Shown: in pieces, positions 3,921 through 55,055 of the stretch | Layout: every line of letters starts with the position of its first letter | Numbering within the stretch: the stretch's first letter is position 1 | Notes under the pieces: model-generated | The model's database searches: none | The model's input: only the letters and a program-made list of their open reading frames with translations | What the model was told of the DNA's origin: nothing | Virus record (IMG/VR): IMGVR_UViG_3300009514_000013 | Coordinates: 1 to 64,000 of that record | DNA: 64,000 nucleotides | DNA from: a virus | Reading direction: 5' to 3' (one strand) | Program-made: the position numbers and the translations under genes

Positions 3921-4109
3921 TGGTTTCAACTCATTTCTAAGCGAGTCCTCAAGCGAGTCCTCAAGCGAGGACCTAAGCGAGGAGCCAAGCGAGGGCCAAA
4001 GTGAGGTCTCAAGCGAGGAGCCAAGCGAGGAGCCAAGCGAGGAGCCAAGCGAGTCCTCAAGCGAGAACTCAAGCGAGGACCAAAGTGACTTCATTTCAAT
4101 CTTTTTCAT
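3891..4109 (-). CDS. SLxx tetrapeptide-repeat protein, copy A
   Basis: 72 aa. MKKIEMKSL is followed by about 13 S-L-x-x units (LWS, LEF, LED, LGS x3, LET, LWP, LGS, LRS, LED x2) and RNELKPSLRNHDSST. The ATG at 4109 shares a base with the stop of the upstream minus-strand gene (TGATG), typical of translational coupling. The 3' end overlaps the convergent spanin-candidate gene by 30 bp. The tail after the NELK motif is longer than in other copies, perhaps because no downstream gene constrains it. Function unknown. Confidence 0.7.
   Translation of the reverse strand: MKKIEMKSLWSSLEFSLEDSLGSSLGSSLGSSLETSLWPSLGSSLRSSLEDSLEDSLRNELKPSLRNHDSST
3939..4090 (-). repeat. 12-bp tandem array A
   Basis: About 13 units of AAGCGAG plus five variable bases (plus-strand view). 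Two units carry substitutions (AAGTGAG). Confidence 0.9.
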
Positions 4110-4594: not shown

Positions 4595-4799
4595 CTTCTA
4601 TCCGTCTCAAAGACCAAAGCGAGTCCTCAAGCGAGAACTCAAGCGAGTCCTCAAGCGAGAACTCAAGCGAGGAGCCAAGCGAGGACCTAAGCGAGGAGCC
4701 AAGCGAGGACCAAAGCGAGGAGCCAAGCGAGGACCAAAGCGAGGAGCCAAGCGAGGACCTAAGCGAGGAGTCAATATGTTTCATTTCAAATTCCTTCAT
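4572..4799 (-). CDS. SLxx tetrapeptide-repeat protein, copy B
   Basis: 75 aa from the ATG at 4799 (MKEFEMKHI, matching the family N-terminus); an in-frame ATG at 4811 would add four residues and overlap the RuvC stop. About 13 units alternate LRS, LGS, LWS, LEF and LED, ending WSLRRIEDELQQSS, a divergent form of the REELKQ end. The 3' end overlaps the next gene by 23 bp. Confidence 0.7.
   Translation of the reverse strand: MKEFEMKHIDSSLRSSLGSSLWSSLGSSLWSSLGSSLRSSLGSSLEFSLEDSLEFSLEDSLWSLRRIEDELQQSS
4611..4773 (-). repeat. 12-bp tandem array B
   Basis: About 13 units; the GAGCC and GACCA variants alternate several times in the middle, suggesting duplication of a 24-bp pair. Confidence 0.9.
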
Positions 4800-5723: not shown

Positions 5724-5952
5724 TTGAACGCCATCTCAAGGAGCCAAGCGAGTCCTCAAGCGAGGAGCCAAGCGAGGAGCCAAGCGAGTACCTAAGCGAG
5801 TCCTCAAGCGAGGACCTAAGCGAGGACCAAAGCGAGTCCTCAAGCGAGTCCTCAAGCGAGTCCTCAAGCGAGAACTCAAGCGAGGACCAAAGCGAGTCCT
5901 CAAGCGAGAACTCAAGCGAGGACCAAAGTGACTTCATTTCAACCTTCTTCAT
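5686..5952 (-). CDS. SLxx tetrapeptide-repeat protein, copy C
   Basis: 88 aa. MKKVEMKSL, then about 16 units rich in LED and LWS, then RWRSNDELEENIEESL. The ATG lies inside the last codons of the upstream gene, so the stretch reading MKKVEMK here encodes DEEG-stop in the other frame. The 3' end reads through the next gene's start, a 38-bp overlap, as if the original stop after ELK had been lost. Confidence 0.7.
   Translation of the reverse strand: MKKVEMKSLWSSLEFSLEDSLWSSLEFSLEDSLEDSLEDSLWSSLRSSLEDSLRYSLGSSLGSSLEDSLGSLRWRSNDELEENIEESL
5738..5932 (-). repeat. 12-bp tandem array C
   Basis: About 16 units including three consecutive TCCTC variants and a repeated TCCTC-AACTC-GACCA block. Confidence 0.9.
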
Positions 5953-7416: not shown

Positions 7417-7727
7417 TGTTTCAACTCCTCTCTAAGCGAGGACCAAAGCGAGGACCTAAGCGAGTCCTCAAGCGAGTACCTAAGCGAGTCCTCAAGCGAG
7501 GTCTCAAGCGAGGACCTAAGCGAGGAGTAAAGCGAGGAGCCAAGCGAGTCCTCAAGCGAGGAGCCAAGCGAGAACCAAAGCGAGGACCAAAGCGAGAACC
7601 TAAACGAGTACCTAAGCGAGTCCTCAAGCGAGTCCTCAAGCGAGAACTCAAGCGAGTCCTCAAGCGAGGAGCCAAGCGAGGACCTAAGCGAGGTCTCAAG
7701 CGATTTCAATTTGATTTTCTCATCCAT
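7413..7727 (-). CDS. SLxx tetrapeptide-repeat protein, copy D (longest)
   Basis: 104 aa from the ATG at 7727 (106 from 7733). The N-terminus MDEKIKLKSL is a divergent form of MKKVEMKSL; about 22 units follow, then LREELKQ. It is first in the minus-strand operon, divergent from the HTH gene at 7787. Unlike other copies it has no upstream gene to couple to, and no clear Shine-Dalgarno sequence is visible. Confidence 0.65.
   Translation of the reverse strand: MDEKIKLKSLETSLRSSLGSSLEDSLEFSLEDSLEDSLRYSFRFSLWSSLWFSLGSSLEDSLGSSLYSSLRSSLETSLEDSLRYSLEDSLRSSLWSSLREELKQ
7432..7704 (-). repeat. 12-bp tandem array D
   Basis: About 22 units, the longest array. One unit reads AAACGAG, changing SL to SF. 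Confidence 0.9.
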
Positions 7728-8050: not shown

Positions 8051-9484
8051 GTGGAGTTGACCTTTCGCGTCCACCGTGGACTTGAACTAAAGACAGAAGG
8101 TGTTGATGGAGACCTCCTCAAAGGTCTCAAAAAAGCGTTCACCTATTCCAATCCAGAATTCCACAAGAAAGAAAGGTTTAACGTTTCTACTTGGAACACA
8201 CCTAGGTTTTTGTGTTCATATGAAGATGTTGGAGATACCATCCTTTTCCCACGAGGTGGTATCGGGAAACTCAGGAAAGTTCTTGATGAATTTGGAATCA
8301 CAAATTGCAAGTTCATAGACGATCGTCTTGAGTTGGACACTGTTGAGTTTGAGCTCAGTGAAAGAGCTCAACCCGTTACTCTGAGACCAGACCAAGAAAA
8401 GCTCAAAGCCGCTATTATTCAGCGTGAAAACTGTCTTATCCGATCGGCTACAGGTTCTGGAAAAACAGAACTGATCATCGATCTCATTCGAGAAATCGGC
8501 CAACCGTCTCTAGTTGTTGTTTGGTCATCGGGTCTACTCAAACAATGGGTTGAACGTATCAAACTCAGATGGGGTTGGGATGAAAATGATATTGGAATCG
8601 TGGGTGGTGGGAAGAAACGAATCCGACCTCTTACTATTGCAATGCAACAAACGCTTTGGAAGAACGCTCATGAAATTGCTCCTCATTTTGGTTTGATCGT
8701 CGGTGATGAAATCCAGCGTTGGAGCTCCAGAACATTCCAAGAAACCATTTCTCAGTTTCCAGCTAGATACAGAATCGGAGTATCGGCCGATGAACGTCGT
8801 AAGGATCGCCTTGAGGTACTTACCCACGATGCCTTTGGTCAGGTAGTGGCGGAAATCTCACGAGAGGAACTCATAGCCCAAGGAAAGCTATGCGAAGTAG
8901 AGATCCTTGTTGTCCCAACGGAAAACCGAATCGTTGAACTAGACCAAGCTCCTCCCCAGGATCGGGGTCAAATCCTGGCAAAATTGTATACCAAGATCAT
9001 CGGTCACCTGGTCCAAGACCGATACCGGAACAACATCATTTCTCAGATAGCTGGCCATGAGGCTCACGAAAAGGGCCGTAGCATCATCATCTTCACCGAC
9101 CGAGTGAATCATGCCCGGGAGCTCTCAAAGCTCATCACAGGGGCTGAGAGCGTACCCTGTGGCATGTGCATAGGTGGTCCTGAAAACAGAGAGTTGTTTG
9201 AAGAGACTACCGAACTGCTTAACAACGGTACGATCAAATGCGCTGTTGGTACCTCAGCAGTGTATCAAGGGATTGATATTCCGAGACTCACAGTGGGGAT
9301 CGTCGGGACTCCAACCGGCAACAACCAACAACTCCTTGAGCAACAGATCGGAAGGCTCCGAAGGAAGTTCCCGGGGAAGATCAGAGGCACCCTCTATTAC
9401 ATTTGGGATCGTCATATTTTCCCCAATCATCTACGTAACTTAGAACGTTGGTACGGACGAGACTTGGTCAGGGTGGTGGAGTGA
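8051..9484 (+). CDS. SF2 DNA helicase (UvsW/XPB-like)
   Basis: 477 aa, GTG start with a purine-rich site (AGAGGAAG) upstream. Walker A is IRSATGSGKTELI (about residue 130), the DEAH-like motif is LIVGDEIQRW, motif III-like is RIGVSADERR, and the C-terminal helicase half contains the motif VI-like QQIGRLRRKFPGK. Related phage helicases remodel branched DNA and control origin use. Its stop overlaps the start of the initiator gene (GTGA). Confidence 0.85.
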   Translation: MELTFRVHRGLELKTEGVDGDLLKGLKKAFTYSNPEFHKKERFNVSTWNTPRFLCSYEDVGDTILFPRGGIGKLRKVLDEFGITNCKFIDDRLELDTVEFELSERAQPVTLRPDQEKLKAAIIQRENCLIRSATGSGKTELIIDLIREIGQPSLVVVWSSGLLKQWVERIKLRWGWDENDIGIVGGGKKRIRPLTIAMQQTLWKNAHEIAPHFGLIVGDEIQRWSSRTFQETISQFPARYRIGVSADERRKDRLEVLTHDAFGQVVAEISREELIAQGKLCEVEILVVPTENRIVELDQAPPQDRGQILAKLYTKIIGHLVQDRYRNNIISQIAGHEAHEKGRSIIIFTDRVNHARELSKLITGAESVPCGMCIGGPENRELFEETTELLNNGTIKCAVGTSAVYQGIDIPRLTVGIVGTPTGNNQQLLEQQIGRLRRKFPGKIRGTLYYIWDRHIFPNHLRNLERWYGRDLVRVVE

Positions 9485-10566
9485 AAGGTATCAACGAACT
9501 CATCCGCAGAGGTGCTATCGCCGAAGTCGGGCACATTCCTTTTTCGGTCTACCTAGTTCTTCGTAATTTCGTCTGGAGAAGTACCAGTAAAGGTGTACCT
9601 GCTCTGCGTAAAGCTCGTGCTAAAGGGCAGGTGATCAGCAAGATCTCCTATCCGAAAATACAGGAGTTGACCTCACTCTCCATTGGTTCAGTACGTAAGG
9701 CAATTACTACATTGGTTGATCGTGGTTGGGTTCAAATTGAGAGCTCTGGAGGTCGGGGTACTTCCTACCTCCTAGGTGTGATCGAAAATCACTCAGAGAC
9801 CTTCTTTGCTGATGATGAGACTGTCACCAGAGATCACTCTCAAAAATCCGAGACTGTCACCAGAGATCAGTCTCAAGTCGGGATCGGGTGTCACGAGAGA
9901 TCAGTCTCAAAATCCGAGACTGTCACCAGAGATCAGTTGAGACTGTCACGTGGTGACACCATAATACATAAAGAATCTGTAAAAGAAGAAAATTACATAA
10001 CCGCGAAGAAGACTAGAAAACGATCTACCAACTCTTCGCGGTACTCTGATCCGAAACAGGAGTCTCGTAACAATGATCGGCGCACCTGGGTAAACCTTGA
10101 TCCACCTGAACCTGCCAGGGTTTCTCGTAAAAAAAGCTCAGTTGTCGATGAAGAAAGTAATCGACGGATTTCCCCCGATGAGCTACGACATCTGAACTCA
10201 GCCCGAGTGAAGAAGCGAGCTGGTCGAATCGGTGATTACACAGGAGACGAAATGGTGGCTGCTTGGCGGTTGATGTTCTCAAAGGCATTTCGAATCGAAG
10301 ACTCGACGTTGGACACTGCGAAGGCTCGAAAGAGAGCAGCGCAAATGATCATCGCTCGAGCCACCGACTGGCACAGCGGAAATCGTGCTCAGCTTTTCGA
10401 TTACCTCCGAAGTCAAATTGGTCTCTGGGCGAACAAGGAACCAGGTGCCAAGTTCCCGGCTGGTTCATTTCCGAAGTTGAACATGTTGCTCAAGCAAGAC
10501 CACAACGGTCGCTCGTGGTGGTGGGACGAGTGGGCTTCAAAAAAGAAGCGTGGGATCAAGGCGTAA
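9481..10566 (+). CDS. Replication initiator-like winged-helix protein
   Basis: 361 aa from the GTG at 9481; an upstream TTG at 9448 is less likely. The N-terminus has a winged-helix segment (YPKIQELTSLSIGSVRKAI, then LVDRGWVQI). The middle (residues 113-160) contains 11-residue repeats (ETVTRDQSQKS type), and the C-terminal 120 residues look like a DnaD/helicase-loader type domain. Lambda O and similar initiators also carry their origin inside their own gene. It lies between the SF2 helicase and the DnaB-like helicase, which supports a role in replisome loading. Confidence 0.6.
   Translation: MKGINELIRRGAIAEVGHIPFSVYLVLRNFVWRSTSKGVPALRKARAKGQVISKISYPKIQELTSLSIGSVRKAITTLVDRGWVQIESSGGRGTSYLLGVIENHSETFFADDETVTRDHSQKSETVTRDQSQVGIGCHERSVSKSETVTRDQLRLSRGDTIIHKESVKEENYITAKKTRKRSTNSSRYSDPKQESRNNDRRTWVNLDPPEPARVSRKKSSVVDEESNRRISPDELRHLNSARVKKRAGRIGDYTGDEMVAAWRLMFSKAFRIEDSTLDTAKARKRAAQMIIARATDWHSGNRAQLFDYLRSQIGLWANKEPGAKFPAGSFPKLNMLLKQDHNGRSWWWDEWASKKKRGIKA
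9817..9959. repeat. 33-bp iterons inside the initiator gene, putative replication origin
   Basis: GAGACTGTCACCAGAGATCA recurs at 9817, 9850 and 9916, with a diverged copy at 9883, giving an exact 33-bp period. A last copy at 9939 leads into the inverted repeat TGTCACGTGGTGACA. Initiator proteins commonly bind iterons within their own coding sequence (the lambda O arrangement). Origin activity is inferred. Confidence 0.55.
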
Positions 10567-10595: not shown

Positions 10596-11978
10596 ATGGG
10601 TGAGCGTGTTGTTGATGTCGATCTGGCCAACGAGCGAGTCATTTTGGCCACGATGATCCACGACCCCGAGAGACGACGTCAGCTCGCTCTCAGGCTGCGT
10701 TCGGATGACTTCGGGGACCCGAGGCACCAGGTCATGTTTAGAGCCCTGAGTGGCCTCTCAAGGGCTTCTCTCACGTGGTCAGAAGATACCTTCGCTGAAT
10801 TTGCCAAGGGCGAGGACTTCGGATCGTGGAAATATCTAAGAGAAATCGTTGACAAATACGAGGCAAATACCAACCTCGATTACCATATAGATCGGCTCCG
10901 TTTGGACCGTGTGAAACTGGAGTTGATAAGGGATGACCTTCAGGATTTGTCCCGAGCATGTGAGGATCCAAGTGCTCCACCAGAACGAATCAGGAGCGTC
11001 CTGAAGAGCGCTCTGACTCGTATCGATCGCATGGGGCACAAGTTCACCTCCGGTGGAGATCTCCTCGTAGACGGCTATTACGAGACCCTGAAGATGAGGG
11101 CCATTGTTGGTGATGTTGTTGAGGGAACAGGGTTCGAGATCCTTGATTCAGTCCTTGCTCGTGGCTTCGTCCCAGGGACTCTATCAGTCATTGCAGCCAG
11201 ACCCGGTTTTGGAAAGACTACGTTCCTTGCCAACTTCATAAGGCATCGGGTCCACAACAAAAAAGGCATCTACGTCTGCGGATGGGAGATGCTTCCTGAA
11301 GATTACCTAGACATGATGATCTCAGCTGAGACAGGTATCCCCGAAAATGACTTGGTTCGTAGGGTCAAATCGTTTTCAAAGGAACAAAACCGAGCCATCA
11401 TCGAAGCAGCGGAACTCTATCGAAATCGAAATCTGATTGAGTTCGAGGCGAACCCTTTTCCTCATCTCGAAAAGACTCCGAAGAAGTGGGACACCAACGA
11501 TCGCAACCTTGATTTTTTTGAATCGTCAGTTCAAAGAGCTTCAAGAACAAAGACCGTTGTTGCTCTTGATGTTGTTGGCAAGATGTTCTCCGATCGACGT
11601 CCGGATTCAGTGACCGAAGCACTCGTCCGAATCCGTGGAATGGCTCAAGCCTATGGCGTTCACATCATGCTTCTTCACCACATCAACCGAGCTGGTGCAG
11701 AAGGTCGGCCAGCACTTGAACACATCAAGAACTCAGGTGCTTTCGAAGAAGAAGCTGATCTCATTTTTGGTCTTGATCGTCCACGTCTCAGAGCGGGAAT
11801 AGAGAAGCGATCGAAGATGAAAGACACCTTGGACATTCACGTTCTCAAGCAACGCAAAGGTCCAGCACCGGCATGTGTACGCTATACCTTCGACGGTACG
11901 CGGTATGCACTTTCCAATGAAGTTGAGGTTGATCTCAGCATGTTGGAAACAAATGATGAAGAAGATTGGGATATGTGA
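10596..11978 (+). CDS. dnaB: Replicative DNA helicase, DnaB family
   Basis: 460 aa, close to the usual DnaB length. The N-terminal helical domain begins with the typical NERVILATMIHDPE. The RecA-like motor has Walker A in VIAARPGFGKTTFL (about residue 205), a Walker B-like strand (TVVALDVVG) and the H4-like MLLHHINR. It would unwind the phage fork, working with the primase and family B polymerase in the same operon. Confidence 0.9.
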   Translation: MGERVVDVDLANERVILATMIHDPERRRQLALRLRSDDFGDPRHQVMFRALSGLSRASLTWSEDTFAEFAKGEDFGSWKYLREIVDKYEANTNLDYHIDRLRLDRVKLELIRDDLQDLSRACEDPSAPPERIRSVLKSALTRIDRMGHKFTSGGDLLVDGYYETLKMRAIVGDVVEGTGFEILDSVLARGFVPGTLSVIAARPGFGKTTFLANFIRHRVHNKKGIYVCGWEMLPEDYLDMMISAETGIPENDLVRRVKSFSKEQNRAIIEAAELYRNRNLIEFEANPFPHLEKTPKKWDTNDRNLDFFESSVQRASRTKTVVALDVVGKMFSDRRPDSVTEALVRIRGMAQAYGVHIMLLHHINRAGAEGRPALEHIKNSGAFEEEADLIFGLDRPRLRAGIEKRSKMKDTLDIHVLKQRKGPAPACVRYTFDGTRYALSNEVEVDLSMLETNDEEDWDM

Positions 11979-12489: not shown

Positions 12490-12704
12490 AGGAAATGAAG
12501 CCACTTAGGTTCTCGCTTGGCTCCTCGCTTAGGTCCTCGCTTTGGTCCTCGCTTGGCTCCTCGCTTTGGTCCTCGCTTAGGTCCTCGCTTGAGGACTCGC
12601 TTAGGTACTCGCTTGGCTCCTCGCTTGGCTCCTCGCTTGAGGACTCGCTTGGGTACTCGCTTTGGTCCTCGCTTTGGTTCTCGCTTAGAGATGAGTTGGA
12701 TTAA
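12477..12704 (+). CDS. SLxx tetrapeptide-repeat protein, copy E
   Basis: 75 aa: MDDLKEMKPL, about 16 units, then LRDELD. It starts inside the previous gene and ends 14 bp inside the primase gene, filling the junction of two replication-operon genes. The same array is also open in the primase frame as an Arg/Pro-rich string, which I do not regard as translated. Confidence 0.7.
   Translation: MDDLKEMKPLRFSLGSSLRSSLWSSLGSSLWSSLRSSLEDSLRYSLGSSLGSSLEDSLGYSLWSSLWFSLRDELD
12504..12686 (+). repeat. 12-bp tandem array E
   Basis: About 16 units of CTCGCTT plus five bases. LGS, LRS, LWS and LED predominate. Confidence 0.9.
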
Positions 12705-17172: not shown

Positions 17173-17351
17173 TGAAGAAAGTTGAAATGAAACCTCTTAG
17201 GTCCTCGCTTTACTACTCGCTTTGGTTCTCGCTTGGCTCCTCGCTTTGGTTCTCGCTTTACTCCTCGCTTGAGGACTCGCTTGAGACCTCGCTTAGGTCC
17301 TCGCTTGGCTCCTCGCTTTGGTTCTCGCTTAGAAATGAGTTGAAACAATGA
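17172..17351 (+). CDS. SLxx tetrapeptide-repeat protein, copy F
   Basis: 59 aa: MKKVEMKPL, about 12 units including the aromatic-rich LYY, LWF and LYS, then RNELKQ. It starts at TGATG with the previous gene and ends in ATGA with the next, the clearest example of a copy fitted exactly into an operon junction. Confidence 0.75.
   Translation: MKKVEMKPLRSSLYYSLWFSLGSSLWFSLYSSLEDSLETSLRSSLGSSLWFSLRNELKQ
17196..17332 (+). repeat. 12-bp tandem array F
   Basis: About 12 units; includes the rare TACTAC (YY) variant, shared with array H. Confidence 0.9.
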
Positions 17352-24648: not shown

Positions 24649-24791
24649 ATTTCGTTGCTCCAGAACTTGAAATTCCTGCGAGGTATTCTCTTTTTTTCAT
24701 TGGTATTTCTACATCAATCGAATTTTCTCTACTCGACTCATTAATAAATGAGTTACAATTTCTCTATGGCTACAAGTCAGAAACGACCTAG
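24621..24791 (+). CDS. Degenerate SLxx-type microprotein
   Basis: 56 aa. The segment SIEFSLLDSLINELQ lines up with SLEFSLEDSLRNELKQ of the array genes, but with different codons. It begins inside the previous gene and runs 26 bp into the methyltransferase gene. Translation is inferred only from this pattern. Confidence 0.4.
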   Translation: MATNRLEIVNFVAPELEIPARYSLFFIGISTSIEFSLLDSLINELQFLYGYKSETT

Positions 24792-26010
24792 AGCAAATCA
24801 ACTCGCCCATATCCTTTCTGATCTCAGAAAACTCGCTGTCCCAATCGAATCCCTCAATCCAGATCCAGAAAACACCAGACGTCACTCGGAATCTGATCTG
24901 AACGTCATCAAGTCTTCTCTTGATGAACTCGGCCAGCACCGACCACTTGTTGTCCAGAAGGAAGGTCGGATCATCCGCGTTGGTAATGGTACTTGGACAG
25001 CTGCAAAGGAATTAGGGTGGAAATGGATAGCCGCGGTTGTTGTTGACGAAGACCGTATGACTGCCACAAGACGATCAATCCTCGATAACCGAACTGCTGA
25101 ACTCTCTGAGTGGGATACTGATCAGCTCGTAAAGCGCCTTGATGAAGCCAAGGAAGACGATTGGGAACTAGAAGACTTCGGCTGGGATGATGAAGAACTT
25201 GCTAGGTTGACTGCTTCTGAGGTTGAAGATGAAGAGGTAGATTTTGAAGAGGTTGTCGAGGATGAAGTTCCGGAGCCTCCCAAGAAAGCAGTTTCGAAGC
25301 TAGGTGATGTTTGGAAACTGGGTGATCATATATTGGTTTGTGGCGATTCTCGCGATTCGCAATCTTATTCATCTTTTGATTCTTCGTTTCATATGGTTCT
25401 GACAGATCCTCCTTATGGAGTTGGGTATGTAGGTGGTACTGGTTTGACCATCCAAAATGATACTGAAGATGGGTTGGAAGAAATGTTGACGAATGTTTTT
25501 GGCAATGTTTTGGAAAAGTGTGAAAAAGGATCTATGTGGTACGTTTTTGGACCACCCGGTCCACTTGGAATAATATTTGGGAGAGTTTTATTATCGTTTG
25601 GTGTATTGAGACAGATTCTCATATGGGTGAAAGACCGATTGGTTTTAGGAAGATCTCATTTCCATTACCGCAACGAGCCGATTTTTTATGGATGGAGTGG
25701 AACAAGTTCCAGACATCCTCCTCCAAACAGAAAGCAGGATTCTGTTTGGGAGTTTGATCGACCACATGCCAACAAAGAACATCCTACGATGAAACCTCTG
25801 AATCTACTTCAGCATGCGATCGTGATGGGATCTTCGAAAGGTGATTTTATAGTTGATCCGTTTTCTGGTTCTGGATCTACACTAATAGCATCTGAGGCTA
25901 CCGAAAGAATTTGTTGTTCTGTTGAAATCGATCCTAGATACTCAGATGTCATCATCGAACGTTGGGAGAACTTCACTGGTAAGAAGGCAAAGAGAATCAA
26001 GAAAGGTTAG
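24766..26010 (+). CDS. ParB-domain / DNA methyltransferase fusion
   Basis: 414 aa from the ATG at 24766; an ATG at 24748 lies within an inverted repeat and is less likely. Residues 20-110 form a ParB/Srx-type N-terminal domain (VPIESLNPDPENTRRHSESD, QHRPLVVQ, RVGNGTW). The C-terminal half has the methyltransferase motif IV VLTDPPYGVGY and the SAM motif VDPFSGSGSTLIA. Phages and mobile elements commonly carry this fusion as an orphan methyltransferase, probably for anti-restriction. The target base is N4-C or N6-A, not decidable here. Confidence 0.88.
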   Translation: MATSQKRPRANQLAHILSDLRKLAVPIESLNPDPENTRRHSESDLNVIKSSLDELGQHRPLVVQKEGRIIRVGNGTWTAAKELGWKWIAAVVVDEDRMTATRRSILDNRTAELSEWDTDQLVKRLDEAKEDDWELEDFGWDDEELARLTASEVEDEEVDFEEVVEDEVPEPPKKAVSKLGDVWKLGDHILVCGDSRDSQSYSSFDSSFHMVLTDPPYGVGYVGGTGLTIQNDTEDGLEEMLTNVFGNVLEKCEKGSMWYVFGPPGPLGIIFGRVLLSFGVLRQILIWVKDRLVLGRSHFHYRNEPIFYGWSGTSSRHPPPNRKQDSVWEFDRPHANKEHPTMKPLNLLQHAIVMGSSKGDFIVDPFSGSGSTLIASEATERICCSVEIDPRYSDVIIERWENFTGKKAKRIKKG

Positions 26011-27152
26011 CAACCCGGCCAGAGAATCTCTGAGATGAATACTGGGATCTGATTGGTATGGATCGGAAACAACCTTCCATCGGTTTCGTTTGCAATGTCA
26101 TCAAAAAATGCTTGTAGCTCAACAAATCCGTAGAATGTGATACCTCTCGCTTTCAACTCGTTTGCCACATCTTGCTCTGTTAACCCTCTTGCACTTTGAC
26201 CATGTTCATCAGCAAACAAGAAGATGAATCGATTTGCTCCTGGTCTCCAATGTACGAACCTTCCCTTAGCCGCATCACTGATGATGTCGTATGACAGTTC
26301 GCTACTTCCAAATGTCCTGGTCATAGAAGCCAGGTTGTTCGGGTCAGGGCATGGTCCAACTGGAAATGTCATGCCTAGCGAATAGCATTCTCTATTTGGA
26401 GAAGCTGTTGAGGTGGTGTTCCCACCAGGCATGTCGATTGGGAACATAGCCACATCAGTGGAATCGTCTTGAGTCTGTCGATTCCAGTAGTCAGCCAGCG
26501 AATCTCCAACAACAGAGACACGAGTTCCCATTGAACAACTACGGTCGATAATCACTACGATGTCGATTTTGACTACGTCCCCTGTGTTTGGAACGTCATC
26601 CACAACTCCATTACAATCGTTATCGATCTGGTCACATCGTTCGGCGAATGGAAGAACCTGACCTTCACAAATCCACTTTCCATAATCACAATAAGAAAGT
26701 CCTATTTTGCATGGTGGGTGTGTAGCTTTCCAAAACTCAGCATCGAAGCACCAGTCTCTGGCGATCCCGTCATCAACCAACCCGTTGCAGTCGTTGTCTG
26801 AACCGTCACATTCTTCTGGTTGTTTCTTGTAATCGGTTGAACAGACGATCTCTTCCCCGTTGCAGACAGTCCGTCCCCCTCGACAGATGCCCAACCCACA
26901 TGATTCTCCGACCCCACCGATCCGGTCGTCGACTTCACCATTGCAGTCATTGTCAATACCGTCACAAATCTCATCGCTTGGAAGAATGTCACCGACACAT
27001 GAGACACCTATCGATGATGTTTCAGTGGTTCCAGGCCGACATTGCCCAACTCCCGAAGTTCCACTTGGTCCCGAATAGCAAGAACCGTAGTGACTCACGA
27101 GTGGTTCTTCACACGCATATAGAAGTACCAAGAGGATTGAAAGGCTTCTCAT
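26007..27152 (-). CDS. Lipoprotein with MopE-type metal-binding repeats and a von Willebrand A-like domain
   Basis: 381 aa. Signal peptide with a lipobox (SILLVLLYAC, Cys about residue 14). Residues 60-195 carry three 'DGxDNDCNGxVDD' repeats (CDGIDNDCNGEVDD type), the putative metal-binding repeats frequent in myxobacterial and other delta-group surface proteins. A VWA-type domain follows with DIVVIIDRSCSM, a near-canonical MIDAS (D-x-S-x-S). It would sit on the host cell surface after infection. Very unusual for a phage; probably a host-derived moron for surface change, adhesion or superinfection exclusion. Confidence 0.8.
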   Translation of the reverse strand: MRSLSILLVLLYACEEPLVSHYGSCYSGPSGTSGVGQCRPGTTETSSIGVSCVGDILPSDEICDGIDNDCNGEVDDRIGGVGESCGLGICRGGRTVCNGEEIVCSTDYKKQPEECDGSDNDCNGLVDDGIARDWCFDAEFWKATHPPCKIGLSYCDYGKWICEGQVLPFAERCDQIDNDCNGVVDDVPNTGDVVKIDIVVIIDRSCSMGTRVSVVGDSLADYWNRQTQDDSTDVAMFPIDMPGGNTTSTASPNRECYSLGMTFPVGPCPDPNNLASMTRTFGSSELSYDIISDAAKGRFVHWRPGANRFIFLFADEHGQSARGLTEQDVANELKARGITFYGFVELQAFFDDIANETDGRLFPIHTNQIPVFISEILWPGC

Positions 27153-31003: not shown

Positions 31004-31189
31004 ATGAAGAAAGTTGAAATGAAACCTCTTAGCTCCTCGCTTAGGTCCTCGTTTAGCTCCTCGCTTTGGTCCTCGCTTGGCTCCTCGCTTTGGTCCTCGC
31101 TTGGCTCCTCGCTTAGGTCCTCGCTTGGCTCCTCGCTTGGCTCCTCGCTTAGGTCCTCGCTTGAGGAAGAGTTGAGGTCTCGACGTTAA
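31004..31189 (+). CDS. SLxx tetrapeptide-repeat protein, copy G
   Basis: 61 aa: MKKVEMKPL, about 12 units (mostly LRS, LGS, LWS), then LEEELRSRR. Starts one base after the DUF6745 stop; its own stop overlaps the 16-bp palindrome at 31185, so here the cassette ends an operon rather than feeding a coupled gene. Confidence 0.72.
   Translation: MKKVEMKPLSSSLRSSFSSSLWSSLGSSLWSSLGSSLRSSLGSSLGSSLRSSLEEELRSRR
31025..31166 (+). repeat. 12-bp tandem array G
   Basis: About 12 units; one reads CTCGTTT (SF), the same substitution found in arrays D and H. Confidence 0.9.
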
Positions 31190-34331: not shown

Positions 34332-36317
34332 ATGGCTGAACACTCTCTCCTCCACATCCGCAACCGAGCGATCCAGAAAGCCAGAGGCAACTACAACCAC
34401 TACGCCGAGTTCGCTCTTCGCAACAACTTAGGAGACCACATCAGGCAGGGAGTCCTTCACCGCATCTGGCAGGTTCACATCCAGCACTGTTGGAAGCATG
34501 GGTACGATCCAGCAATCCTGGCCCCATTTGCTCACGGAAAGTGCCAGCCCAAAGGTTCGTTGGTCCAAATGGCCGATGGGTCGAGAGTTCCTATTGAGAG
34601 GATCAACGGTGAACAAGTCATTGGTTTCGATGAAGAGGAATACTCGTTCTCTCCATCTTCTGCCCGGTCATTCCCAAACGGAGTCAAGCGAGTCCTCAGG
34701 TTGAATCTATGGTCTGGTCGTTCTGTTGAAGTAACCGAAAATCACCCACTCCTGACGGCCGATGGGTGGTCTCCAGCTACCAAATTGGAAGTGGGTGATC
34801 ATGTAGCTGTGTCTCGTAAAATTCCAGACGTTGGTCGTACTCGTCTACGTGAAGGTGAGGCGCGACTAATTGGGTATTTCATTGGGGATGGGGGGACAAC
34901 TACACGTCCGATTTTCACAGTAGCCGATGAAGTGATTGAGCAATCCTTTTGTGAGACTGCGAGGGGGCTTGGGTTTGATCCCAATTCTCACTGTTACCAA
35001 AAGACAGCGAAGACGGTATATGTCAAAGGTGCTAGGAAGTGGCTTCGTAGCATAGGCCTTCTTGGTTGCAACTCGCACACAAAGCGCATCCCGGAGAGCA
35101 TCTTCAAGGCACCTCTAGATCAGGTATCCGAGTGTCTCGCTGCTTATTTTGAATGCGATGGTAACGTCTCCACACAACGTACAGGGTCCGCTGAATACTA
35201 TTCGGTTAATCGAGATTTGCTTTCCGATGTCCAATCTCTCCTCCTGCGGTTCTCAATCAGATCTCAACTCAGACGAAAACGAGGTCGTTACAATGGTGAA
35301 GTTCACGAGTCTTGGCGCCTGACGATCACAGGGAGTGATAACCTCGAATTGTTCAGAGATCAGATTCCTGTGATCGGTTCGAAGCGGGAGAAGCTAAAGT
35401 CGATTCAATTGGTCAAGGCAAATGCGAATGACGATGGGGTACCTCTAGTGTACCGTGAGTACCTGTATCAAACTCCTTATTGGCATAAGAGGAATACCGG
35501 TGTTTCTCTCGACCAAATGTCAAAAAGGACTACCAACCGAGAGACTGTTCGGAAAGCAGCCTTAGCTGAAGGAAACAAGTATCTGATGAACTTGGTTTCG
35601 GATTGGGTGTCGTGGGATCGAATCGTATCGATTGAAGACATGGGTGAATTGGAGACCTTTGGGTTGGAAGTCGATCGTCTTCACACGTACATCACTAATG
35701 ACGTCATCGTTCACAACACGATTCAGCTAGTCGTTGGTTTCCCAACATTCCTACTCGGACAAGATCCAAACCAACGCATCAAGGTCATCTGTCAGAATGA
35801 CGTCAGAGCCATGGAGCGCGTCATGGGTATCTCTGCAATCATCAGATCAGCTCCTTACCAGGTCCTGTTCCCAAACGTCAGAGAGGTACCAAGAGAGCTC
35901 GCTAGGAAGAAAGGTCTACAGTCCAAATGGACTTCTCACGAGATCTTCTTACACAGAGAAGGCTTCGCCATTGACCCATCCGTTCAAGCAGCAGGCGTCC
36001 TCTCAGGCGGTACTGGTGGCCGTTGCGATCTCCTCATCTTTGACGATGTTGTTGACCAGAAGAACGCCATTGACCAACCAGAACTCAGACAGAAGGTGAT
36101 CGACAACGTAGACAACGTCTGGTCTCAAAGGCTCGAGCCGACAGGTAGAAAGCTCTTTGTAGGAACTCCATGGCATCAGGCCGATCTGACCCACAAACTC
36201 ATGGAGAGGCCATCCTGGTCGGTCTTACGCAACTGGATATCCGAAGACTTCAAACGGATTGAGATGGAGGTCTACAATCCACCACCTGGCTATCCGATTC
36301 CTGTGCTTCAGGAGTGA
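34332..36317 (+). CDS. terL: Large terminase ATPase half, interrupted by an intein
   Basis: 661 aa precursor: N-extein residues 1-70, intein 71-462, C-extein 463-661. After splicing (269 aa), PFAHGK joins TIQLVVG to restore Walker A HGKT. Walker B is CDLLIFDDVVD, and the coupling motif KLFVGTPWHQADL follows. It powers DNA translocation into the procapsid. The chain stops after PPPGYPIPVLQE, where a TerL would continue into the nuclease domain; that half is encoded separately at 49332. The start codon follows the 16-bp palindrome. Confidence 0.85.
   Translation: MAEHSLLHIRNRAIQKARGNYNHYAEFALRNNLGDHIRQGVLHRIWQVHIQHCWKHGYDPAILAPFAHGKCQPKGSLVQMADGSRVPIERINGEQVIGFDEEEYSFSPSSARSFPNGVKRVLRLNLWSGRSVEVTENHPLLTADGWSPATKLEVGDHVAVSRKIPDVGRTRLREGEARLIGYFIGDGGTTTRPIFTVADEVIEQSFCETARGLGFDPNSHCYQKTAKTVYVKGARKWLRSIGLLGCNSHTKRIPESIFKAPLDQVSECLAAYFECDGNVSTQRTGSAEYYSVNRDLLSDVQSLLLRFSIRSQLRRKRGRYNGEVHESWRLTITGSDNLELFRDQIPVIGSKREKLKSIQLVKANANDDGVPLVYREYLYQTPYWHKRNTGVSLDQMSKRTTNRETVRKAALAEGNKYLMNLVSDWVSWDRIVSIEDMGELETFGLEVDRLHTYITNDVIVHNTIQLVVGFPTFLLGQDPNQRIKVICQNDVRAMERVMGISAIIRSAPYQVLFPNVREVPRELARKKGLQSKWTSHEIFLHREGFAIDPSVQAAGVLSGGTGGRCDLLIFDDVVDQKNAIDQPELRQKVIDNVDNVWSQRLEPTGRKLFVGTPWHQADLTHKLMERPSWSVLRNWISEDFKRIEMEVYNPPPGYPIPVLQE
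34542..35717 (+). other. Intein with LAGLIDADG homing endonuclease, inserted in Walker A
   Basis: 392 aa. First residue Cys (HGK|CQPKGSL), Hint block B-like VEVTENHPLLTADGW, C-terminal block FGLEVDRLHTYITND with the terminal His-Asn before Thr (VIVHN|T). Two LAGLIDADG-like helices, RLIGYFIGDGG and CLAAYFECDGN, indicate a homing endonuclease. Splicing residues Cys1, HN and Thr+1 are all present, so it should be active. Confidence 0.85.
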
Positions 36318-38889: not shown

Positions 38890-39762
38890 ATGAAACAATT
38901 GTATGACTTCTCGAATGATCGGAAGAGCGAATCCTTGATTGAGACAGTCAAGAAAGAATTTGAAGTGAAGAAACCAATCCTCGACCCACAAAAAGCTGCC
39001 GAGTATGCGAATGAGCACGGATTGCCTGTGCCGGGGCGGCGCAAACGACATGGTGGAACATTAGATGGATCGCCGTTCTTGATTCGGGAAATGAGGAACG
39101 GGAAGTTGTCCGACCGCAAATGGGTCAGTTGTAGTTCGTATGGGTATGGACATGCTTTTATGTTAGTCCCAACCGGAGAAACACGAAAATTGATGGAGCA
39201 AGAAGATGAGCCCAAAAACAAAGATACAAATCGCTCACGACATCAAGGAGGCAGCAGAAAGGCTGAAGAGTGCTTTGGTGAGTCTTCCAGCGAACAGTTT
39301 AGCGGTGGAGACCATAGAGGAACTAGTGCTAGCTGTGATTACAGCCAACCTAAAACTGCTCAAGCGTGCGACCAAACCTCAGCCCACGGAGTCAAGCCAA
39401 GAGGAGGATGGCGATGGTTAGAACTTGGTGAGTCATTGTCTGAACATGATCAACGTCGATGGTCAGCACAGAATCCAAACAAATGGGCTATGAAGAAAAA
39501 ACTCGACATGTTTGCGGATGAGTCTAGATGGCGCCGTCCCATCTTCGAAGGCAAAACAGATGTGGAACGCGCTATACTTGGTGAGATTCCAGACAAAAGG
39601 CGCCATAGGCCTGAATTAGCGGGTGTAGAGAGATGGTCTTGTCTCCGTCATGACAAGAGAGATGAAGACCATTGGCTTGCTTCAAATATCCCAGGAGCAC
39701 GTTCTGATTTCGATACAGCCGTTGGCTACGATTGTATGTACGGTGAAGAGTTCGAGGAATGA
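38890..39762 (+). CDS. Hypothetical protein with a nested second gene
   Basis: 290 aa from the ATG at 38890 (AAGGAAGGG upstream), or 295 aa from 38875. Residues 1-105 and 180-290 look like ordinary protein, but the middle (from EDEPKNKDT on) is low-complexity and coincides with a well-formed gene in another frame at 39206-39421. Either the middle is a disordered linker on a dual-coding stretch, or two genes have been joined by a lost stop or sequence error. Function unknown. Confidence 0.45.
   Translation: MKQLYDFSNDRKSESLIETVKKEFEVKKPILDPQKAAEYANEHGLPVPGRRKRHGGTLDGSPFLIREMRNGKLSDRKWVSCSSYGYGHAFMLVPTGETRKLMEQEDEPKNKDTNRSRHQGGSRKAEECFGESSSEQFSGGDHRGTSASCDYSQPKTAQACDQTSAHGVKPRGGWRWLELGESLSEHDQRRWSAQNPNKWAMKKKLDMFADESRWRRPIFEGKTDVERAILGEIPDKRRHRPELAGVERWSCLRHDKRDEDHWLASNIPGARSDFDTAVGYDCMYGEEFEE
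39206..39421 (+). CDS. Small helical protein nested in another frame
   Basis: 71 aa. Regular amphipathic helices (IKEAAERLKSALVSLPANSL, VETIEELVLAVITANLKLLK) and a polar tail; a more natural protein than the other frame gives over the same bases. Starts ATGAGCCC with AGCAAGAAG upstream. Confidence 0.5.
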   Translation: MSPKTKIQIAHDIKEAAERLKSALVSLPANSLAVETIEELVLAVITANLKLLKRATKPQPTESSQEEDGDG

Positions 39763-40314: not shown

Positions 40315-41340
40315 ATGAAGAAAATCCTAGTCCTAGGTGGTGGTCATCAAGGCAAGATCATCGCAAAAGAACTCGCACCTGATTTCGAAGTAATGGTTGG
40401 TGACATTTACGAGACCGTCTTACCAAACGTGGATCCTATATATCTTGATGTTACAGACACTGAGATGCTCAAGGACGAAGTCCTCGGATACGATCTCGTC
40501 ATTGGTGCTCTCCCATCGAAGTTCGGATACCAAGCTGTTAGAGCCGTCCTAGAGGTCGGTGTTCCAATGATAGACCTCTCGTTCTGTCCAGAAGATTTGA
40601 TGGAGTTAAATGGTCTAGCCAAAAAGAATGGCACCTTCCTCATTTCAGATTGTGGTCTCGCTCCAGGTCTCTCCAATCTCATTGTTGGCTACGAATTCAG
40701 CAAGAGAGAAGTAGAGAACATCAAGATCATGGTTGGTGGAGTGGCCAAAGACATCGATGCACCGTATGGGTACAAGGTCAGCTGGTCTGTTGATGACCTC
40801 TTAGAGGAATACACTAGACCTGCAAGGATTCGTATTGATGGAGAGAATGTCCAGATCCCAACGCTCACCAACTACGAGGTTGTAAACATCCCAGGAGTTG
40901 GAATCATGGAAGCGTTCTGCACCGACGGTCTCCGATCACTACTGCGAATTCACGGCCCTAAGAACCTCGTTGAGAAGACTCTCAGGTGGAGAGGTCATGT
41001 TGACCAGATCAAGCCACTGATACGTGATGGAACGTTCGTAGAGACCATCACAAGAGAATGCCAGAATGGTGAGGATCTCGTGGTGATGAGGATCGAGATG
41101 GATGATGATGTCATTCAGACAGTCATCAAGGCATCTGATGGAATCTCCGCTATGTCTCGTGGAACAGCTCTCACTACAGCGATGACAGCTAGGTTGGTTC
41201 TGGAAGATGATGTGTTTGTGAATTCGAAAGGAGTCTACTTCATGGAAGACTTCTTACCAGAAGAGTCGATGAAGTTGTTAGAGATGTTGGAGACTCGAGC
41301 TGGGGTAGCGTTCAATTGGTTCAAGAAAGGAGAAGAGTAA
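40315..41340 (+). CDS. Saccharopine dehydrogenase-like oxidoreductase
   Basis: 341 aa. N-terminal Rossmann fold (ILVLGGGHQGKIIAKELA, residues 4-21), then YDLVIGALPSKFG, VPMIDLSFCPED and the family-typical SDCGLAPGLSNLIVG. These fit NAD(P)-dependent enzymes of the saccharopine/carboxynorspermidine dehydrogenase group (lysine metabolism or polyamine synthesis). Rare in phages; probably an auxiliary metabolic gene. The substrate cannot be told from the sequence. Confidence 0.8.
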   Translation: MKKILVLGGGHQGKIIAKELAPDFEVMVGDIYETVLPNVDPIYLDVTDTEMLKDEVLGYDLVIGALPSKFGYQAVRAVLEVGVPMIDLSFCPEDLMELNGLAKKNGTFLISDCGLAPGLSNLIVGYEFSKREVENIKIMVGGVAKDIDAPYGYKVSWSVDDLLEEYTRPARIRIDGENVQIPTLTNYEVVNIPGVGIMEAFCTDGLRSLLRIHGPKNLVEKTLRWRGHVDQIKPLIRDGTFVETITRECQNGEDLVVMRIEMDDDVIQTVIKASDGISAMSRGTALTTAMTARLVLEDDVFVNSKGVYFMEDFLPEESMKLLEMLETRAGVAFNWFKKGEE

Positions 41341-41353
41341 TCGCGACAAAACA

Positions 41354-41386
41354 CTGTCACGATTCTGTCGCGATTCTGTCACGATT
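41354..41386. repeat. Three tandem 11-bp repeats
   Basis: CTGTCACGATT, CTGTCGCGATT, CTGTCACGATT directly after the dehydrogenase stop, followed by a partial copy. Could be a protein-binding site for control of the next gene. Confidence 0.5.
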
Positions 41387-41423
41387 CTAGTCAATCGGCT
41401 GGGTTAAGAAAGGAGAGGGGTGA

Positions 41424-42005: not shown

Positions 42006-42212
42006 ATGAAGAAATTGAAATCGCTTAGGTACTCGCTTGGCTCCTCGCTTTACTACTCGCTTTACTCCTCGCTTGAGGACTCGCTTAGGCACTCGCCTAG
42101 GTACTCGCCTTGGTCCTCGTTTAGCTCCTCGCTTTACTCCCCGCTTTGGTTCTCGCTTTGGTCCTCGCTTAGGTTCTCGCTTTGGTCCCAAATGTGTTTA
42201 ACAAAGGAATAA
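42006..42212 (+). CDS. SLxx tetrapeptide-repeat protein, copy H
   Basis: 68 aa: MKKLKSL, about 14 units with more substitutions than other arrays (LRH, PRY, PWS, FSS), ending LWSQMCLTKE. It opens the nucleotide-enzyme operon after a TTGACC element at 41960. Several units have CTCGCCT or CTCGTTT, so this copy seems to be drifting. An AAAGGA site at its 3' end serves the MazG gene. Confidence 0.7.
   Translation: MKKLKSLRYSLGSSLYYSLYSSLEDSLRHSPRYSPWSSFSSSLYSPLWFSLWSSLRFSLWSQMCLTKE
42020..42186 (+). repeat. 12-bp tandem array H
   Basis: About 14 units, the most diverged of the nine arrays (changes inside the constant CTCGCTT). Confidence 0.88.
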
Positions 42213-45970: not shown

Positions 45971-46167
45971 AGAAGGTTGAAATGAAACCTCTTGGCTCCT
46001 CGCTTTGGTTCTCGCTTGAGGACTCGCTTGAGGACTCGCTTGAGTTCTCGCTTGAGGACTCGCTTGAGGACTCGCTTAAGGACTCGCTTTGGTCCTCGCT
46101 TGGCTCCTCGCTTTACTCCTCGCTTGGCTCCTCGCTTTGGTTCTCGCTTAGAGAGGAGTTGAAGTAG
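45967..46167 (+). CDS. SLxx tetrapeptide-repeat protein, copy I
   Basis: 66 aa: MKKVEMKPL, about 14 units rich in LED, then LREELK. The end contains GAGAGGAG, which also serves as ribosome binding site for the next gene; its TAG overlaps that gene's GTG. Confidence 0.75.
   Translation: MKKVEMKPLGSSLWFSLEDSLEDSLEFSLEDSLEDSLKDSLWSSLGSSLYSSLGSSLWFSLREELK
45985..46147 (+). repeat. 12-bp tandem array I
   Basis: About 14 units; five are the GAGGAC (ED) form and one is AAGGAC (KD). Confidence 0.9.
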
Positions 46168-53336: not shown

Positions 53337-55055
53337 ATGGCTGGAATCGATATGTCTTTTGGTGGTCAAGAATTTCCGAGAGCGTTGGAGGTTCGCCAAT
53401 ACCTCTACAACAATGCGATCTTAGGGCAAACGACTAGGCTCCGAACTTTGGATCGATTGGATGCTTTCTACAAAGGTCTTGAATATGCTCACCACCAAAC
53501 CGGATGGGATGGATTCTCCGCAGATCAATTAGAGACGATTTCTCCTGATGCCACTAAACCGTTAGGTTTCACCAAACCAGCCGACAAGACCATGGTTGGT
53601 CAAAAGCGACCAACAGCACCTCTTCGTTTGACCGGAACGGTTGTGGATCGGTTCACAGGCCTCCTCTTCTCGAAGAAGCGTCTACCCAAAGTCACGATTG
53701 AAGATGATCAAGAATCCAACGACTTCGTCCAAGCCGTATTCAAGAAGACACGGTTTTGGAGAACTATGTACAACTCCCGAACCTATGGCGGTTCGATGGG
53801 CTCTTCTTTGATCACAGTTCAGTTGAGGAATGGTCGTTTCTCGTTCAAAGCTCATAGTCCCAAGACGATTCAAGACATCGTTTGGGAAGATCCAGATCTC
53901 AAGATACCTGCTGGAGTTCTCATCCAGTACATCTATTACGTGGAAAAGGATGAAGTAGATCCGAAGACAGGTGCTCCGACTGGAACAATGAAGAACTGTC
54001 CTTATCTCTATCGAAGGATTATAGATGCTGAGTGTGACGTCATTTTCAAACCGGCTGAGATTGTGAACAACAAACTTCCTGAGATGGAGATTGATGAACA
54101 CCAAAGCTACCAGCATAGATTGGGAGAATTCCCTGGAGTCTGGATTCAGAACCTTCCATGTGAAGAAGAAATCGATGGCGTTGCCGATTGCGAAGGTGTC
54201 TATCAGATCTTCGACACAATCGATCGGCAACTGGCTCAATCGAACAAGGGGTTGTTAGCCAATCAGGATCCTACAGTTGTCCTTTCGATTGATAAGAAAC
54301 TCATGTCGGCAGGAGTTCCTATCCACAAAGGATCTGAAAATTCTTTGAATGTTGGAATGGGTGGATCAGCCAACTACTTGGAGATATCTGCATCGGGAAT
54401 CACAGCAGCAAGAGAATTCGTCAAAGACTTGAAACAAGCTGCAATGGATCGAGCTCAGGTTGTTCTTGCTGATCCTCAGACGATGGCTGGTTCAGCACAG
54501 TCTGCTTTAGCAATTGAGTTTCTTTATCAACCGATGCTCGAGAAAGCTGACAGGTTACGAGAGCAGTATGGTCAAGCGATTGAGGTTCTTGTTGACCTAC
54601 TGTTGAAGTTGGGTCGGATTTGGTCGGATCCGCTTCGATATGAAGGAAATGCGAAACCTAAGTTTGATTTGCCTCCGAAGATTGTTGAGATGGATTCAGA
54701 TCCCGAGAATCCAGAAGCTGAGATGGGTGTTCAAAAGCTCAAAGTGTTTCCAGTACCCGGAGAAGGTTCTCAGGTAGCATTGTCTTGGGGTCCTTACTTC
54801 TCGCCTACTCCTACAGATGTTCAGACGCAAATTGGTGTTGTTGCTACAGCTTATGGAGCTGGATTGATTGACCTGGACACGGCAGTCAGCAAAGTAGCTC
54901 ACATCCTGGATATTGAAGATGAAGAAGGTCTGTTACGGCGAGTGAAGGAAGAAAGCAAAAAGCGCAAAGCTGATGTGATGGCTAATTTAGAAGAAGCTGG
55001 AATGGGATGGCCTACCTCTCCAATTCCACGTCCAGAAGGTGAGGAACTCATATGA
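53337..55055 (+). CDS. Portal protein
   Basis: 572 aa. RLDAFYKGLEYAHHQTGWDG and TGTVVDRFTGLLFSKKR at the N-terminus and the helical QSALAIEFLYQPMLEKADRL region are in the style of SPP1/HK97-type portals. The dodecameric portal forms the DNA entry vertex and binds the terminase. Size and its place before the MuF-like, scaffold and capsid genes support this. Confidence 0.75.
   Translation: MAGIDMSFGGQEFPRALEVRQYLYNNAILGQTTRLRTLDRLDAFYKGLEYAHHQTGWDGFSADQLETISPDATKPLGFTKPADKTMVGQKRPTAPLRLTGTVVDRFTGLLFSKKRLPKVTIEDDQESNDFVQAVFKKTRFWRTMYNSRTYGGSMGSSLITVQLRNGRFSFKAHSPKTIQDIVWEDPDLKIPAGVLIQYIYYVEKDEVDPKTGAPTGTMKNCPYLYRRIIDAECDVIFKPAEIVNNKLPEMEIDEHQSYQHRLGEFPGVWIQNLPCEEEIDGVADCEGVYQIFDTIDRQLAQSNKGLLANQDPTVVLSIDKKLMSAGVPIHKGSENSLNVGMGGSANYLEISASGITAAREFVKDLKQAAMDRAQVVLADPQTMAGSAQSALAIEFLYQPMLEKADRLREQYGQAIEVLVDLLLKLGRIWSDPLRYEGNAKPKFDLPPKIVEMDSDPENPEAEMGVQKLKVFPVPGEGSQVALSWGPYFSPTPTDVQTQIGVVATAYGAGLIDLDTAVSKVAHILDIEDEEGLLRRVKEESKKRKADVMANLEEAGMGWPTSPIPRPEGEELI

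Follow-up and report, generated by a model that had tools for sequence, protein, structure and literature searches.

A candidate lambda-type replication origin inside the O-like initiator gene of a poorly known tailed phage

Known intragenic origins and the locus under study

The origin of replication of lambdoid phages is located midway along gene O and comprises iterons and an AT-rich region (PMC7466680), with neighboring iterons bound by O dimers to give the O-some (PMC3985674). In lambda itself, the 40 nt of gene O that are richest in AT come just after the annotated iterons (39034 to 39118), and an imperfect palindrome comes next. SPP1 has an oriL made of direct repeats within gene 38 and an AT-rich DNA unwinding element (DUE), used with a DnaB-family helicase, and it carries a second such origin, oriR, at a distance from oriL (PMC6316719).

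We analyzed bases 1 to 64,000 (the window) of a virus record of 84,362 bases, which is possibly incomplete. Here, direct repeats also lie inside an initiator gene and an AT-rich tract lies beside the array, as in lambda-type intragenic origins. Judging from the sequence, we consider it highly probable (about 0.86) that these repeats are the iterons of a candidate lambda-type origin located inside the gene of their presumed binding protein. The likely replication origin of the original prediction is therefore upheld by an O-like initiator, a DnaB-like neighbor, repeats with more or less complete dyads that are partly out of frame, an AT-rich tract, an inverted repeat, and a turn in the GC skew. 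The position of an origin inside the initiator gene has long been known from lambda, so this appears to be a clear but ordinary further example; its value is that it locates the probable start of replication in a poorly known tailed phage without a close relative in the collections searched.

Replication genes

The genes surrounding the candidate origin are as follows.

8051 to 9484, plus strand: upstream helicase of the DEAD/ResIII superfamily (PF04851, 6.5e-14; phrog_16, 7.8e-57)
9481 to 10566, plus strand: O-like replication initiator gene, 361 aa (PHROG profiles)
10596 to 11978, plus strand: DnaB-like replicative helicase (PF03796, 8e-25; PF00772, 1e-10; phrog_19, 1.5e-46)

The upstream helicase gene and the initiator gene overlap at GTGA, in which the stop codon of the former shares bases with the GTG start codon of the latter. 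The protein matches PHROG profiles annotated as "replication initiation O-like" (phrog_678, E = 3e-7; phrog_391, 5.5e-5; phrog_270, 1.5e-4), and the first 111 aa alone still match phrog_678 (E = 1.1e-5), so that its place in the O-like family is assigned by profiles of the N-terminal, DNA-binding half (PHROG 678 and related). Helix-turn-helix matches in Pfam are subthreshold (HTH_41, 20.5 bits versus a cutoff of 25). A winged-helix gene between two helicase genes had been predicted; the position is right, and the subthreshold Pfam and O-like PHROG matches support a helix-turn-helix domain but no winged helix in particular. A repetitive linker sits between the two halves of the protein, and the C-terminal half has no match to a PHROG or Pfam family. 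Structure predictions made without an alignment had mean pLDDT values of 40 and 37. Against lambda O there was no significant BLASTP alignment, and with neither direct similarity nor a C-terminal match, the comparisons indicate that the initiator is not lambda O proper.

Searches of IMG/VR with peptide patterns found no close relatives of the initiator, DnaB, or the DNA polymerase, and the spaced iteron pattern had no match in the same collection. A tblastn search with the initiator against phages and plasmids gave nothing significant, and no relative was found among solved structures. Downstream of the DnaB-like helicase gene, the phage codes for its own primase and a family-B DNA polymerase.

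The repeat array

The array and the inverted repeat that closes it have the following components.

9822 to 9836, plus strand: iteron 1, core TGTCACCAGAGATCA
9855 to 9869, plus strand: iteron 2, core TGTCACCAGAGATCA, at the center of the perfect dyad GAGACTG-N11-CAGTCTC (9850 to 9874)
9889 to 9903, plus strand: iteron 3, core TGTCACGAGAGATCA, in a reading frame unlike that of the other three iterons
9921 to 9935, plus strand: iteron 4, core TGTCACCAGAGATCA
9944 to 9958, unstranded: inverted repeat TGTCACGTGGTGACA, that is TGTCAC-GTG-GTGACA, closing the array (read from the sequence)

The four copies share a 15-bp core, TGTCAC(C/G)AGAGATCA, starting at 9822, 9855, 9889, and 9921. The original prediction of four repeats, placed inside the initiator gene and ending in an inverted repeat, is borne out on all three points, as the span from 9822 to 9958 falls within the O-like gene; the exact 33-bp period proposed for them is not, since the start-to-start spacing is 33, 34, and 32 bp. 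Exact matches to TGTCACSAGAGATCA in the whole 84,362-base record are limited to the four iterons, and the reversed control pattern had 0 matches there. Repeat positions in the initiator gene numbered 69, versus at most 4 (first test) and 0 (second test) in codon-shuffled versions. The best-kept extended unit is that of iteron 2, GAGACTG-TCACCAGAGAT-CAGTCTC, a dyad with 7-bp arms that are perfect in this copy and carry one mismatch in copy 1; in copies 3 and 4, one of the two arms is degraded.

A repeat inside a gene could also be a protein feature, in this case a repetitive disordered linker grown by slippage and devoid of any role as DNA. Iterons 1, 2, and 4 are read in codon phase 2 and give peptides of the ETVTRDxSQ type, with an 11-residue spacing from copy 1 to copy 2, and they lie in the linker between the protein halves, all of which would fit such an origin by slippage. 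Iteron 3, however, is read in codon phase 0 and encodes the unrelated peptide GCHERSVSK while keeping 14 of the 15 core bases, with flanking changes that bring the frame back before copy 4. The 11-residue protein repeat said to be superimposed on the DNA repeat thus holds for copies 1, 2, and 4 and breaks down at copy 3. Differences from the consensus over the four copies cluster outside the core (22 of 72 positions, versus 1 of 60 within it), and a 15-base block this conserved arose in 0 of 20,000 column permutations. Iterons in differing frames are also found in lambda (phases 0, 2, 2, and 1), and a linker grown by slippage would leave the dyads and the AT-rich tract unexplained, so we regard the protein-only explanation as very unlikely. 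The origin reading is favored because the letters of the core DNA are kept where the peptide is not. This points to selection acting on the iteron DNA, with the out-of-frame iteron 3 as a neat natural sign that DNA rather than peptide is under selection; four copies in one genome make this an argument and not a proof.

AT-rich tract and inverted repeat

Two further elements lie directly behind the array.

About 9956 to 10020, unstranded: AT-rich tract, proposed as the DNA unwinding element; AT content 77% over 44 nt, versus a gene mean of 51%
10000 to 10042, unstranded: perfect 10-bp inverted repeat ACCGCGAAGA / TCTTCGCGGT, arms at 10000 to 10009 and 10033 to 10042, with 23 nt between them

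No 44-nt or 60-nt window of the whole record is richer in AT than this tract, which shares the top rank with peaks near 24.69 and 29.24 kb, and the order of elements is iterons, AT-rich tract, and 10-bp inverted repeat.

The array might instead be an operator through which the initiator autoregulates the downstream replication genes, with the true origin elsewhere. Dyads are typical of regulator sites, and a promoter-like sequence, TTGAGA-17-CATAAT (10/12; 9937 to 9965), overlaps both the closing inverted repeat and the AT-rich tract. Yet the number of promoter-like sites does not exceed chance expectation (3 found, 4.4 expected), and an array in the middle of the gene, followed by a top AT peak and an inverted repeat, suits an origin better. 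Both roles may also coexist, as in lambda, where the pO promoter influences ori-lambda (PMC3985674). An operator with the origin elsewhere therefore seems improbable to us.

For the candidate origin, a mechanism can be borrowed from the known systems. The N-terminal helix-turn-helix domain of the initiator would bind the four sites with their more or less complete dyads, which may lie on roughly one face of the DNA because they are spaced 32 to 34 bp, or about three helical turns, apart. The initiator-iteron complex would then melt the AT-rich tract directly downstream, and the product of the next gene, the DnaB-like helicase (10596 to 11978), presumed to be loaded at this site, would be recruited, probably through the C-terminal domain of the initiator. 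A bolder proposal, which we hold only tentatively and consider rather doubtful, is that a largely self-sufficient replisome (initiator, DnaB-like helicase, primase, and family-B polymerase) is combined here with a lambda-type intragenic origin of unusual three-turn spacing and an undescribed C-terminal family that recruits the helicase.

Comparison with described origins

Among the closest described systems are lambda O and ori-lambda, together with the origins of lambdoid Stx phages, which also have four mid-gene iterons that are partly out of frame and bear internal dyads, the dyads here being perfect in copy 2 and less complete in the other copies. As in lambda, an A-rich AT tract lies behind the iterons on the same strand and is followed by an inverted repeat. 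In contrast, the iteron sequence is unrelated and the spacing is 32 to 34 bp rather than the 20 to 24 bp of lambda. Where the lambda O-P module continues with a P-type loader, the next gene of this phage is its own DnaB-like helicase, and, again unlike in lambda, the genome also encodes a primase and a family-B DNA polymerase.

SPP1, with gene 38, oriL, and the helicase gp40, resembles the locus in having direct repeats and an AT-rich DUE in the gene of a putative origin-binding protein and in coding for a DnaB-family helicase. It differs in its separate loader, gp39, and its second origin, oriR, neither of which we identified in the phage studied. In Pectobacterium phage ZF40 (gp14-gp15), a helix-turn-helix O-like gene with internal repeats is likewise followed directly by a DnaB-like helicase, but the repeats are unrelated, the similarity between the initiators is not significant, and the AT peak does not immediately follow the repeat cluster.

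As no close relatives were found, the comparison was extended to IMG/VR loci around distant DnaB-like helicases and four phage records, giving a panel of 126 reading frames that precede the helicase. A repeat cluster was scored when it stood above codon-shuffled controls, and the AT maximum was sought in the 76-nt window directly behind the cluster. Clusters were present in 35 of the 126 frames, and in 22 of these 35 the AT maximum of the gene lay directly behind the cluster, versus about 3.4 expected, a count that is approximate because a few frames overlap. Initiator, O-like, DnaD-like, or primosomal families were matched by 17 of the 19 non-lambda genes scanned. The panel repeats are unrelated to the iterons described here, and, in those looked at, the spacing is mostly 11 or 20 to 24 bp, which puts 32 to 34 bp at the long end of the panel. 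The recurrence of this layout in many other phages (22 of 35 panel genes) argues for the origin reading, and it suggests that iterons followed by an AT-rich tract, inside a gene that precedes a DnaB-like helicase, are a usable origin signature for uncultured phages.

GC skew and a second array

After detrending, the cumulative GC skew is lowest at 10,204, about 200 bp from the site, and highest at 55,010, near the opposite point if the replicating genome is circular. Among plus-strand genes, those that lie beyond about 10 kb show a GC skew above that of the rest, a difference equaled in size by 3 of 96 rotations. When third codon positions are taken by themselves, the skew lacks significance (20 of 96 rotations) and favors 15 to 17 kb; changes in gene orientation near 7.75 kb also affect the skew. 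For the original prediction, which named GC skew as a check, we take the skew as weak support for an origin near 10 kb.

One more array was found in an intergenic region.

41353 to 41387: 11-bp tandem array ACTGTCACGATTCTGTCGCGATTCTGTCACGATT, which has ACTGTCACG in common with the inverted repeat that closes the iteron array

It is possibly another binding site. An extension of the preferred reading, not exclusive of it, is that the phage, like SPP1 (PMC6316719), has a second origin besides the iteron array, perhaps at 41353 to 41387. The presence of ACTGTCACG both there and at 9942 to 9950 fits this idea, but the common word is just 9 bases long, the intergenic array lacks the full iteron core, and none of the top AT peaks is next to it; we consider two origins unlikely.

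Other features of the genome

A degenerate 12-bp minisatellite (AAGCGAGGACCC / CTTGGGTCCTCG) forms nine dispersed arrays in both orientations.

First five: 3939 to 4085, 4612 to 4774, 5739 to 5928, 7434 to 7703, and 12504 to 12688
Last four: 17196 to 17330, 31028 to 31163, 42021 to 42188, and 45999 to 46149

None was found between 64 and 84 kb of the record. Several fall within reading frames or at their ends, where they encode SLEDSLxSSL, RLGPRLAP, or KRGPKRGA according to the frame. Two 106-kb contigs of IMG/VR, for which little relation to the phage could be detected, also carry the unit; we discarded these as relatives, as they have no detectable homolog of the initiator or the polymerase and at most a weak helicase match.

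At 34332 to 36317, an intein with a LAGLIDADG endonuclease domain is inserted in the terminase large subunit gene, and a saccharopine dehydrogenase-like gene (PF16653, 6.8e-25; PF03435, 6.5e-9) is located at 40315 to 41340. A minus-strand gene at 26007 to 27152 codes for MopE-type putative metal-binding motifs with a weak match to a VWA domain, which is unusual for a phage, and the gene at 24748 to 26010 fuses a ParB N-terminal-like domain to a DNA N6/N4 methyltransferase.
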